Origin: Schaalia sp. JY-X169
Lineage (GTDB): Bacteria; Actinomycetota; Actinomycetes; Actinomycetales; Actinomycetaceae
Assembly: GCF_014069575.1 (NCBI RefSeq)
Contig: NZ_CP059675.1
Span: 1,302,001-1,366,000, forward strand
Direction of reading: 5' to 3'
DNA length: 64,000 nt
In this document: piece after piece, positions 41,214 to 45,036 of the stretch
How positions within the stretch are numbered: the first letter of the stretch is position 1
Layout: the number at the start of each line of letters is the position of its first letter
Notes under the pieces: generated by a model
The model's database searches: none
What the model saw: only the letters and a program-made list of their open reading frames with translations
What the model was told of the DNA's origin: nothing
Program-made: the position numbers and the translations under genes

Positions 41214-41378
41214 CTACTTACGACCGAAGCTGAAGAAGCCGCCCTTTGAGGATTCGGACTTCGGGTGCCCGTCGCACCACTGTCCCTTGGGAACGCTGGC
41301 CTTAACTGCGGCCACATGCTGCCCACAGCCACTCCATGTTGTCTTACCGCAGGTCTTGCACTTAACTGGTGAACACAT
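41214..41378 (-). CDS. Small Cys-rich protein, 54 residues, possible zinc knuckle
   Basis: Translated by hand from ATG 41378 to TAG. The protein begins MCSPVKCKTCGKTTWSGCGQ and ends GGFFSFGRK; Cys at 2, 7, 10, 18, 35 and His at 21, 38 suggest a metal site (CxxC plus CxxH-like pairs). AAAGGATTGAAAACT precedes the ATG. It starts 65 bases after the CoA-disulfide reductase stop on the same strand, so it is probably the last gene of that persulfide-linked unit. I recall similar short actinobacterial proteins but no assigned function. Confidence 0.7.
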   Translation of the reverse strand: MCSPVKCKTCGKTTWSGCGQHVAAVKASVPKGQWCDGHPKSESSKGGFFSFGRK

Positions 41379-41442
41379 AGTTTTCAATCCTTTGTTGTTA
41401 CTTTGCTACTTTGTTGAAGTTATTGAAGTACTGCATCGAGCC

Positions 41443-43140
41443 CTACTTGATGATCTCAACCTCGGGAATAACGCCCCCGGCAATCGCATCACGAATGGTC
41501 AGCATGCCCCCTGACAGATTGCGAACATCATCGAACCCTTCTTGGACGAGGATCCGTTCCGCGAGGAAGGACCGCACACCCGACTGGCAGTGGACCCGGA
41601 CTGGGCGTCCCCCTGCCGCCTCTCTCACCTCGTCAAGGCGTGCCCGCAACTCCGTGTGAGGAATGTTGAGAGCCCCTTCCAGATGCCCTGAGGCAAACTC
41701 GCTTGCACTGCGAACATCCAAGACCAGGCTGTTCTCTAGAACCTCGGGGATCTCGCTCGCATACCACAGCTTTGTAACCCCATCCATAACATTCTGACCG
41801 TAGTAGCCAATCATGTTGACGGGATCCTTTGCACTGCCGTAAGGGGGCGAGTAAGACAGGTCCAGGTCAATGAGGTCATCAACCTTCAGTCCGCCCCTCA
41901 TCGCGGTCGCCAGCACGTCGATTCTCTTCTCGACGCCGTTTTCTCCAACTGCCTGGGCACCCAGGAGCGTGCCGTCTGCCTTTGAGAAGTGCACGACCAT
42001 GTGGATCTGCGTCGCACCGGGGAAATATGCTGCGTGGTCGTTGGGGTGAGTGTAAACCGTGTGGTAGTCGATTCCCGAAGCGTCGAGGGCGCGACGGTTC
42101 GCTCCGGTCATGGCTGCAGTAAATTTGCCGACCCGAACAACTGCAGTGCCCAGCGGCACAGCAAACTGCCGCGCTTGCACTTCAGTCGTGCCTGCGCCCC
42201 GCGCAATGTCATCAGCGATGAGGCGACCGGCCCTGTTGGCAGGTCCGGCCAAAGGTACCGGGCGCAGTGCACCCGTGAGCGGATCCGGCGAAGCAACGGC
42301 GTCGCCTCCTGCCCAAATGCCTGGGAGGTTAGTCCGACCGTGACGGTCAACCACCAGTGCACCGCGTTCAGTTTTCAGGCCCGCGGCCTCGAACACCGTG
42401 GTAGCCGGGCGAACACCAATGGAGAGAACAACCAGGTCTGCTGGCAGGCGGCGCCCATCCGCTAGGACAACGTCCACGGCATCTCCGGATGGTTCGATAC
42501 TTGCTGCTGCCACGCCGGTCACTGTCTCAATGCCCAGGCGGTGTAGTTCTGAGGTCACCCGTGCCGCAACTTCCGGTTCAGTCGGCGGAAGTACGTGAGG
42601 CGCCAACTCAACGATCGTGGTTTTCACGCCTTGATGAGCCAAGGCCTCGGCAGCTTCCAACCCGATGAACCCAGCACCCAGAACAACTGCCTGCCTAACG
42701 CTGCCCTCTAGGACACGCTTGCGCATCTCTAGGGCATCGGGAACAGTACGCATGTGCCAAACCTGTTCCGAGTCAAACCCGGGTAGGTCGGGACGCAGCG
42801 CAACCGCACCCGGAGCAAGGATCAGGTTGTCATAATGCAGGACGTCCTCGCCGTCCCCGCTGCGAACCATGACGGTCTTTGCCTCAGCATCCACGCCGAC
42901 CACTTCGTGACCGGTGCGTACGTCCAGATTGAGAGCGGCCCGCAGCTTCTCGGGGGTCTGCACCAGCAGTGCGGCGCCATCCTCTATCTCTCCACCGACG
43001 TAATATGGCAAACCACAGTTCGCGTAAGAAACGTAGGGGCCCTTCTCAAGGACAATGATCTCTGCGGTTTCATCGAGGCGGCGCAGGCGCGCAGCCGCAC
43101 TCATCCCTGTTGCTACTCCCCCAACGACAACTGTGCGCAT
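41443..43140 (-). CDS. CoA-disulfide reductase-rhodanese fusion
   Basis: A 565-residue flavoprotein. Residues about 1-450 are a class III pyridine nucleotide-disulfide oxidoreductase: VVVGGVATGMSAAARLRRL (FAD), SYANCGLPYY with the single active Cys, VVLGAGFIGLEAAEAL (NAD(P)H) and a dimerisation domain. Residues about 470-565 are a rhodanese domain with the active loop HCQSGVRS. Such fusions reduce CoA persulfide or polysulfide. ATG 43140 has AGGAGG nine bases upstream. A perfect ATACCCC palindrome sits in its promoter. Confidence 0.92.
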   Translation of the reverse strand: MRTVVVGGVATGMSAAARLRRLDETAEIIVLEKGPYVSYANCGLPYYVGGEIEDGAALLVQTPEKLRAALNLDVRTGHEVVGVDAEAKTVMVRSGDGEDVLHYDNLILAPGAVALRPDLPGFDSEQVWHMRTVPDALEMRKRVLEGSVRQAVVLGAGFIGLEAAEALAHQGVKTTIVELAPHVLPPTEPEVAARVTSELHRLGIETVTGVAAASIEPSGDAVDVVLADGRRLPADLVVLSIGVRPATTVFEAAGLKTERGALVVDRHGRTNLPGIWAGGDAVASPDPLTGALRPVPLAGPANRAGRLIADDIARGAGTTEVQARQFAVPLGTAVVRVGKFTAAMTGANRRALDASGIDYHTVYTHPNDHAAYFPGATQIHMVVHFSKADGTLLGAQAVGENGVEKRIDVLATAMRGGLKVDDLIDLDLSYSPPYGSAKDPVNMIGYYGQNVMDGVTKLWYASEIPEVLENSLVLDVRSASEFASGHLEGALNIPHTELRARLDEVREAAGGRPVRVHCQSGVRSFLAERILVQEGFDDVRNLSGGMLTIRDAIAGGVIPEVEIIK

Positions 43141-43159
43141 GCGGGTGGTCCTCCTATTG

Positions 43160-43195
43160 TTTGATTTCAACGACTATTTATTTGATTTCAACGAC
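43160..43195. repeat. Two 15-bp direct repeats, 21-bp period, before the CoA-disulfide reductase
   Basis: TTTGATTTCAACGAC occurs at 43160-43174 and 43181-43195, identical copies spaced two helical turns apart (minus strand GTCGTTGAAATCAAA). They lie between the ATACCCC palindrome and the ribosome site. They could bind a second regulator on one DNA face or shape the 5' leader. Confidence 0.7.
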
Positions 43196-43202
43196 GTTTA
43201 CT

Positions 43203-43218
43203 ATACCCCATGGGGTAT
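43203..43218. promoter_or_regulatory. CstR/CsoR-type operator upstream of the CoA-disulfide reductase
   Basis: ATACCCCATGGGGTAT is a perfect 16-bp palindrome of the form recognised by CsoR-family repressors, including the persulfide sensor CstR. On the minus strand it overlaps a TATAGT -10 candidate. No CsoR-family gene is in the window, so the regulator would act from elsewhere. Confidence 0.72.
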
Positions 43219-43225
43219 CAAGAGC

Positions 43226-43254
43226 GGGGTGTGTGGATTGTCTCCACACACCCC
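43226..43254 (-). terminator. Terminator after the SQR-small protein unit
   Basis: Perfect 12-bp stem GGGGTGTGTGGA / TCCACACACCCC with a 5-base loop, 26 bases past the stop of the 71-residue gene and just upstream of the next promoter. It separates the two transcription units. Confidence 0.78.
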
Positions 43255-43279
43255 ATTTAACTCCTGCTAACCACCTGCG

Positions 43280-43495
43280 CTAGTCGTGCGAATGGCCTTT
43301 CAGGACCATACGCATGATAGTTAGATCAAACCCAACAAACTTCACAAACTGCGGGATCAAGGACTTCCTTGCCCGCAAGGTTGCGTCGGTTGGCAGGGGT
43401 GCAGCTGCAAGGTCTGCAACTGGTCCCCCAACATACTTGTCAGTAGTAGTCGATTCCGACATTGCTTCCGCCTTCTCACTTGTCATCTCAGTCAC
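43280..43495 (-). CDS. Small conserved protein coupled to SQR
   Basis: A 71-residue protein starting at GTG 43495 in a GTGA overlap with the SQR stop (an ATG ten codons later is an alternative). The N-terminal half is polar (TTDKYVGGPVADLAAAPLPT); the end is an amphipathic helix, SLIPQFVKFVGFDLTIMRMV, followed by the His-containing tail KGHSHD. The helix could rest on the membrane face and help SQR dock or exchange quinone; this is inference. I do not know a family name. Confidence 0.65.
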   Translation of the reverse strand: MTEMTSEKAEAMSESTTTDKYVGGPVADLAAAPLPTDATLRARKSLIPQFVKFVGFDLTIMRMVLKGHSHD

Positions 43496-44946
43496 TCCGG
43501 AATCAAGAACCAGAAGGGGTTAGCCTTCGCCTTGTAGATGAATAGGTAGTGCAACATCAGCTTCACCCAGTGCCCGGACAATCCAATGTCTCCGCGAGTG
43601 TCTTTGATGTCGCGACCCGTCGGGTACTTCACGTAGTCAGGTACGACCGGCATCATTGTCATCGCAGCAGCAGAACCCTGCGTCATTCCCGTACCTGCGG
43701 ACGCAACACACGCAGCCCCCATGTTTGCCATGGAAGCAGATACTGCAGTCGCATTGGGGTCCTTGATTCGTTTAGCGATGGTCTGAGCCACAGCCTTGCC
43801 CATGACGCCCGAAGGCATTCCCGTCCTCGGCGGAGCAGGTGCGATCATGGTCCCGTTTGGAGTAGTCCGAGGGCGCGAGATCTGGTGGGGTGGAGCAAAC
43901 GCAATACCGACTGCAAACACGTTGGGGAACAACGGGGCTTCATAGGTCTTGGGCCAGTCCGCGGCTCGCCACTCCTCGTAAGGCTTCGGCGTGTAGTCGG
44001 CGTCAACCTTCATAAACCCGGACGGGGCGAACATCTTTTCAGAGATATCCGTACCGTCAGCATCGAAAGCCTTGAGTGGGACCCCACCGAACGGGGGAAG
44101 CAGCATCGCGAAATCGAACGATAGCTTGTGCTTCTCACCATCGAGCGTCTCATACGTAATGACGCCATCGGCGATCTGCTCGACCGCAGTTCCAAGGATG
44201 GCCTCGACGTTGCGCTCCCTGAACAGCGACCCAGTCCACAGTTCAGAAGAGGTCTCAAAACCTCGGTCGACGAAGGTCATGCCATCGACGCCAAAGTCGC
44301 CGAGTTCCGCCTCATTTGTGAGGAAGACGAGCCGAACCATGTCGCGAACTCCGGCTTTACGAAGTCGATCGTCGACGTTGAAAACATACTCGAAGGCAGC
44401 GCCCTCACAGGTGCATGTGCCATGACCCGTGCCGACCACTGCAACCTGCTTCTGACCCGCTCTGGCACGCTCAATCAGCGCGTCCAACTCCCTTGCCGCA
44501 TGTACAGCGTGGTCGGCGGTGCACACCGAAACAGTCTCACCCTGATCCGGACCCAGCCCCGGCGTCGCTTCAAAGCGCAGCTTGGGGCCTGTTGCGTTGA
44601 TCAGATAGTCGTAAGGGATGCGCGCCCTGCGTCCTTCTTGCTCGGGCAGCGTGCTCTCAACCTCAACGAATCCACTATCGACGCCATCACCACCGTTCGG
44701 CCAAATCTGGGTGGCCTTCGCTTGCACCAGGTTGATGCCCTTTTTCTTGTATATCGGGGCAAGTGGAAACAAGACCTTCTGCTGAGGCATTGTTCCAACA
44801 CCAACCCAGATGTTTGATGGAATCCAGTTCCAGTCCCGATTTGGCGTAACAACCGTCACGCTGTGTTCTTTGCCAAGCATGCGACGCAAATGCAAGGCTG
44901 CTGTGTGCCCTGAAACGCCGGCGCCCAACACCACTATGTTGGCCAT
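43492..44946 (-). CDS. sqr: Sulfide:quinone oxidoreductase
   Basis: A membrane-associated flavoprotein of 484 residues that oxidises sulfide to persulfide or polysulfide and reduces quinone. It has FAD motif ANIVVLGAGVSGHTAALHLR, NATGPKLRFEATPG, and the C-terminal FAVGIAFAPPH. Cys lie in GHGTCTCEGAAFEY and in MGAACVASAG, the positions expected for redox-active Cys of the archaeal/actinobacterial SQR type. The C-terminal part (HYLFIYKAKANPFWFLIPE) is amphipathic. Start ATG 44946 or 44952 follows AAGGGAGAGA. The 71-residue gene overlaps its end. Confidence 0.87.
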   Translation of the reverse strand: MANIVVLGAGVSGHTAALHLRRMLGKEHSVTVVTPNRDWNWIPSNIWVGVGTMPQQKVLFPLAPIYKKKGINLVQAKATQIWPNGGDGVDSGFVEVESTLPEQEGRRARIPYDYLINATGPKLRFEATPGLGPDQGETVSVCTADHAVHAARELDALIERARAGQKQVAVVGTGHGTCTCEGAAFEYVFNVDDRLRKAGVRDMVRLVFLTNEAELGDFGVDGMTFVDRGFETSSELWTGSLFRERNVEAILGTAVEQIADGVITYETLDGEKHKLSFDFAMLLPPFGGVPLKAFDADGTDISEKMFAPSGFMKVDADYTPKPYEEWRAADWPKTYEAPLFPNVFAVGIAFAPPHQISRPRTTPNGTMIAPAPPRTGMPSGVMGKAVAQTIAKRIKDPNATAVSASMANMGAACVASAGTGMTQGSAAAMTMMPVVPDYVKYPTGRDIKDTRGDIGLSGHWVKLMLHYLFIYKAKANPFWFLIPE

Positions 44947-44978
44947 GCGCATTCTCTCCCTTGATGATGTACGCGTGA

Positions 44979-45011
44979 ACGAGGACGTCGCTCATTCGAT
45001 GACGTCCTCGT
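44979..45011. repeat. Perfect 11-bp inverted repeat in the SQR leader
   Basis: ACGAGGACGTC (44979-44989) and GACGTCCTCGT (45001-45011) are exact complements with an 11-base loop. It lies between the predicted SQR promoter and its ribosome site, so it should form an mRNA hairpin or bind a dimeric regulator. It could also act as a terminator for the upstream aldo/keto reductase gene. Confidence 0.65.
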
Positions 45012-45018
45012 CTCAAGC

Positions 45019-45036
45019 ATACGCCCCCCGGGGTAT
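45019..45036. promoter_or_regulatory. CstR/CsoR-like operator in the SQR promoter
   Basis: ATACGCCCCCCGGGGTAT shares the GGGGTAT half and 12 of 16 positions with the perfect palindrome at 43203. On the minus strand it overlaps a TATGCT -10 candidate and its spacer, placing it in the core promoter of sqr. Confidence 0.55.

Follow-up and report, generated by a model that had tools for sequence, protein, structure and literature searches.

A candidate CstR-type persulfide regulon with an unlinked regulator in Schaalia sp. JY-X169

In S. coelicolor, the CsoR-like repressor ScCsoR, which carries Cys37 and Cys66, binds ATACC-N6-GGTAT, as determined by EMSA and MEME, and is released from its DNA by polysulfide (PMC7533328). 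In E. faecalis, a CstR controls a CoA-persulfide reductase, CoAPR, in a cst-like operon (PMC9405070), and in B. licheniformis the CstR-like YrkD controls sqr (PMC9918477).

The window analysed here is the whole stretch of 64,000 nucleotides from Schaalia sp. JY-X169 (NZ_CP059675.1, positions 1,302,001 to 1,366,000), in which two operator-like sites precede sulfide and persulfide genes. Both sites are very probably operators of the only CsoR-family protein of the genome, a dithiol repressor of the CstR type whose gene lies at a distance of about 255 kb. What began as a motif noticed by eye thereby becomes a testable regulon with exact sites, and the searched literature describes none in this organism.

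Genes and operator-like sites of the locus

As an earlier note on the sequence had stated, the locus joins a sulfide:quinone reductase (SQR), a rhodanese fusion and two small proteins, and all of the genes lie on the minus strand. The features, by position in the window, are as follows.

41214–41378, minus strand: gene directly after coaPR for a 54-aa Cys-rich protein (MCxPVxCKxCGKTTWxGCGxH...), which recurs in CstR modules
41443–43140, minus strand: coaPR, CoA-persulfide/CoA-disulfide reductase-rhodanese fusion, 565 aa from an ATG behind AGGAGG
43203–43218, no strand assigned: candidate coaPR operator, perfect palindrome ATACCCCATGGGGTAT with 0 mismatches, 62 bp before the coaPR ATG
43220–43256, minus strand: strong hairpin GGGGTGTGTGG...CCACACACCCC located after the sqr operon and ahead of the coaPR operator (-36.6 kcal/mol, z -5.4)
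43280–43495, minus strand: gene for a 71-aa protein directly 3' of sqr, its position kept beside sqr homologues of other actinobacteria
43492–44952, minus strand: sqr, sulfide:quinone reductase-like flavoprotein of 486 aa
44970–45022, minus strand: strong hairpin ACGAGGACGTC...GACGTCCTCGT in the sqr 5' leader (-32.2 kcal/mol, z -4.2)
45021–45036, no strand assigned: operator-like sqr site ACGCCCCCCGGGGTAT with 2 mismatches, 69–84 bp before the sqr ATG

In CoAPR, a pyridine nucleotide-disulfide oxidoreductase domain is fused to a rhodanese domain, and the active-site cysteine motifs of both (NCGLPYY and HCQSGVRS) are present; its best solved relative is the coenzyme A-persulfide reductase 8a56 (E 4e-141), and the NCBIfam CoA-disulfide reductase models match it below their cut-offs. 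SQR aligns with the solved sulfide-quinone reductase 3sz0 (E 3e-38), including two cysteines in the CTADHA and CTCEG regions, and its C-terminal part lies outside the alignment. The 71-aa protein, kept after sqr in several actinobacteria, belongs to no Pfam or NCBIfam family. The hairpin at 43220–43256 has no T-run and received no terminator call; it is probably the end of the sqr transcript. In a relative (G051, L136/L135), the sqr leader carries a hairpin at the same place with a different sequence, followed by a near-identical stretch, as judged by eye.

The perfect palindrome that the earlier note had placed before the CoA-disulfide reductase-rhodanese gene was recovered exactly. Genome-wide motif statistics were based on a reversed-pattern control and on base composition, by which about 0.01 perfect ATACCCCNNGGGGTAT would be expected in 2.38 Mb; for the pattern ATACCC-N4-GGGTAT, the 2.38-Mb genome contains three perfect sites, against 0.12 expected and none for the reversed control. 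Across 151 family genomes, summed from the table, approximately 218 forward motif matches stand against 3 in the control. Genome-wide sites with two mismatches were dropped, numbering 61 against 36 in the control, with several inside unrelated genes. The central bases differ among sites and ATACC/GGTAT remains constant; the consensus is better written as ATACC-N6-GGTAT.

The related site described in the sqr promoter was likewise found, and it draws its support from conservation. By itself it is not significant, with 3 matches of up to three mismatches in the window against a shuffle mean of 1.48, and 14 of the 30 sqr homologues have no site, many of them in genomes that have CstR. These figures, together with the two mismatches, would suit a situation in which the coaPR palindrome alone is a true operator and the sqr site resembles it by chance, sqr being otherwise controlled or constitutive. 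Such a coincidence is nevertheless unlikely, because a site with at most 2 mismatches occurs within 250 bp upstream of 16/30 sqr homologues and in none of the 60 controls (reversed motif 0/30, downstream 0/30). Moreover, the 89%-identical sqr homologue of G051 has a one-mismatch site, ATGCCCCCGGGGGTAT, at -80, compared with -84 here, and other relatives have perfect sites at nearly the same place before sqr. The proposed overlap of both sites with -10 elements is plausible: TATAGT and TATGCT start inside the two sites by eye, the former on the minus strand with the final TAT of the coaPR palindrome, but neither site scored a consensus sigma-70 promoter.

The single CsoR-family regulator and the range of the motif

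A genome search proposed in the earlier note returned exactly one DUF156 (CsoR-family, PF02583) gene (73.8 bits against a cut-off of 22.8), which encodes a protein with both cysteines and lies far from the window, beside dnaG at about 1600103-1600450 of the chromosome (G000:C1). In the alignment to M. tuberculosis CsoR (2hh7), the fingerprint reads Gly-Cys-Ala-Cys against Tyr-Cys-His-Cys; in 2hh7 numbering, Cys36 and Cys65 are kept, His61 is replaced by Ala and Tyr35 by Gly. Because both sensor cysteines are kept and the copper-binding histidine is absent, the protein is regarded as CstR-like. No good ATACC-type site lies upstream of its gene, and the usual autoregulation therefore seems lost. 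In the sister genome G070, cstR is beside dnaG too, with a two-mismatch remnant upstream by eye.

That the regulator is encoded elsewhere was thus correctly predicted, but the separation is a local peculiarity, since most sampled relatives have cstR inside the coaPR operon or adjacent to it. Common orders there are [site]-coaPR-cstR-small protein, cstR-[site]-coaPR, or a divergent arrangement, and the majority of the relatives inspected have all four elements, the 54-aa gene included, in one place; here and in G070, coaPR is directly followed by the small gene and cstR adjoins dnaG instead. In 24/28 inspected CstR-class loci, ATACC-N6-GGTAT occurs upstream of cstR at a distance of up to about 2.6 kb, which is no unbiased rate because the loci were partly picked for a listed site nearby. 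In six records (L190, L204, L205, L208, L210 and L212), one of them a plasmid, the offsets of site, cstR and 54-aa gene are equal and the CstR sequences nearly identical across several genera, which may reflect either recent transfer or contamination.

Among the relatives, high-scoring DUF156 members show the copper fingerprint YC...H...C, and a lower-scoring class has C...C without that histidine; for most genomes the class follows from the score, and at the 28 loci the sequence itself was checked. Over the 151 family genomes, 80/85 with a CstR-class gene and 12/66 others contain the site, with a Fisher value of 3e-23 that is only descriptive, because the class is mostly by score and the genomes are related rather than phylogenetically independent.

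This distribution bears on whether the sites might belong to a copper-sensing repressor of the CsoR/RicR type, so that the sulfur genes would answer copper or copper-driven thiol stress. CsoR, RicR and CstR form one motif family (PMC7533328), and in the copper operon copZ-copA-csoR of the relative G106, the palindrome ATACCCCAAGGGGTAT stands immediately ahead of copZ (L140, G106:C1:2049500-2056500, site at 2103). It follows that the motif alone cannot tell copper from sulfur, and it is the sensor residues and the target genes that support the persulfide assignment. A copper sensor is very unlikely here: the only DUF156 protein of the genome has no Cu-ligand histidine and no Tyr-Cys-His-Cys fingerprint, the genome's own copper-type ATPase genes with 1.5-kb flanks contain no perfect or one-mismatch site, and the site is present in 6/23 CsoR-only relatives, compared with the fraction given above for those with CstR. 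The earlier description of the operators as CstR-like is therefore upheld by a Cys-Cys regulator without the histidine and by sulfur targets, and is qualified by the motif shared with a copper CsoR operon. On the sequences at hand, copper CsoR and CstR seem to use a common operator motif in the family, cross-talk is possible in genomes with both, and motif-based annotation must also check sensor residues because copper and persulfide members appear to share the motif. A genome of the same genus (G015, L134) has coaPR, sqr and both small genes with a copper-type CsoR only; a joint loss of operators and CstR was not adopted for it, as an imperfect palindrome whose spacer is longer by 1 bp persists in its coaPR promoter.

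The further palindromes for which the earlier note proposed a search exist as ATACCC sites, mostly before sulfur genes. Of the two other perfect sites, one precedes a rhodanese lipoprotein gene by 28 bp and one a DUF4395 gene by 25 bp. A one-mismatch site lies approximately 35 bp upstream of a gene for another SQR-like flavoprotein, with DsrC and DrsE2 genes following it; perfect sites stand at this second SQR-like gene in G093 and G106. The candidate regulon may thus reach beyond the two window operons, to five candidate target operons under one regulator. In other loci, perfect sites seen by eye, each at position 1501 of its record, precede a persulfide dioxygenase-like gene of the metallo-beta-lactamase type (L075, G060:C68) and a peroxiredoxin-like gene (L070).

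The 54-residue cysteine-rich protein

Small, widely conserved and unnamed, the 54-aa protein tracks with persulfide defence and is the least-known and most promising part of the locus. Invariant in 15 family members are M1, C2, C7, C10, GKTTW, G17, C18, G19, H21, V25 and C35. It matches no Pfam or NCBIfam family, a PDB profile search gave nothing convincing, and a literature search for CGKTTW returned one DNA-motif paper only; a fold search with its AlphaFold model (pLDDT 69, beta-beta-alpha) was dropped, as the model was too weak.

Among 80 named actinobacterial loci of this protein (best matches), a perfect ATACC-N6-GGTAT is found in 61 and the reversed motif in none, and a CstR-like DUF156 gene lies within flanks of up to 5 kb in 54/80; this set is biased, because the query came from CstR modules and several loci share the same stretch. 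Among 198 genomes drawn from across the phylum, a perfect site stands no more than 300 bp upstream of 8/22 copies, against none for the reversed control, and the site and the start codon of the 54-aa gene overlap in four of those copies, from distant lineages. The chances appear about even that this CGKTTWxGCGxH protein is an unrecognised core part of the persulfide response in actinobacteria; what it does biochemically can only be guessed at, and it might be a small carrier of the zinc-thiolate or sulfane-sulfur kind that acts together with CoAPR and rhodanese.

The start-codon overlap in distant lineages also bears on the idea that the palindromes are no regulatory protein sites at all, for instance mRNA hairpins or parts of terminators. 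Any palindrome forms a hairpin by nature, and a strong one adjoins the coaPR site; yet the idea is improbable in the extreme, for the centre varies between sites with ATACC/GGTAT kept, site occurrence follows the CstR-class genes, and the site overlaps a coding start in some of those lineages.

Proposed circuit and comparison with described systems

For operators of the CstR-type protein, the sites, their excess over chance, the link with CstR-class genes, the regulator residues and the target genes come from sequence, and DNA binding, persulfide sensing and derepression are carried over from studied relatives. Reduced CstR would occupy ATACC-N6-GGTAT over the -10 region and thereby block coaPR with the 54-aa gene and, more weakly, sqr with the 71-aa gene. 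Persulfide or polysulfide would modify both cysteines of CstR and take the repressor off the DNA. The derepressed cell would then make SQR, converting sulfide to persulfide, and the CoAPR-rhodanese, reducing CoA persulfide; through the unlinked sites, the rhodanese lipoprotein, the DUF4395 membrane protein and the second SQR-like/DsrC/DrsE2 set would be made as well.

The proposed circuit resembles that of S. coelicolor ScCsoR in its actinobacterial two-Cys DUF156 repressor, its ATACC-N6-GGTAT operator and its persulfide-handling targets; however, the S. coelicolor regulator adjoins its targets and is autoregulated, whereas it is unlinked here, and the targets there are a persulfide dioxygenase (PDO), a rhodanese and a sulfite transporter, compared with CoAPR and SQR in the window (PMC7533328). 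As in E. faecalis, a CoA-persulfide reductase-rhodanese fusion would be under CstR; the E. faecalis operon has RhdA/RhdB, and the available part of that report shows neither sqr nor a Cys-rich small protein in it (PMC9405070). A CstR-type repressor over sqr is shared with B. licheniformis YrkD, which differs in its linked 11-gene cluster, PDO and second, two-component regulator (PMC9918477); the window locus itself contains no PDO.

Proximity of regulator and targets is usual in CstR systems and does not apply here. A Cys-reactive CsoR-family regulator far from its sulfur-gene regulon is also found in Thermus thermophilus, where TTHA1953 differs in its operator, TACNNTACNNNNGTANNGTA, and in its Sox targets (PMC10318464). 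Copper CsoR/RicR proteins belong to the same protein family and have a very similar motif, but they carry a Cu-ligand histidine and control copper efflux, and this genome has no such protein. Given the parallels with S. coelicolor, E. faecalis and YrkD and the CoAPR match, the window fits a CstR-type persulfide-stress regulon, in which the kind of circuit, the operator consensus and the control of CoAPR by CstR are known, and which includes the unnamed 54-aa protein, a recurrent neighbour of this switch in many actinobacteria.
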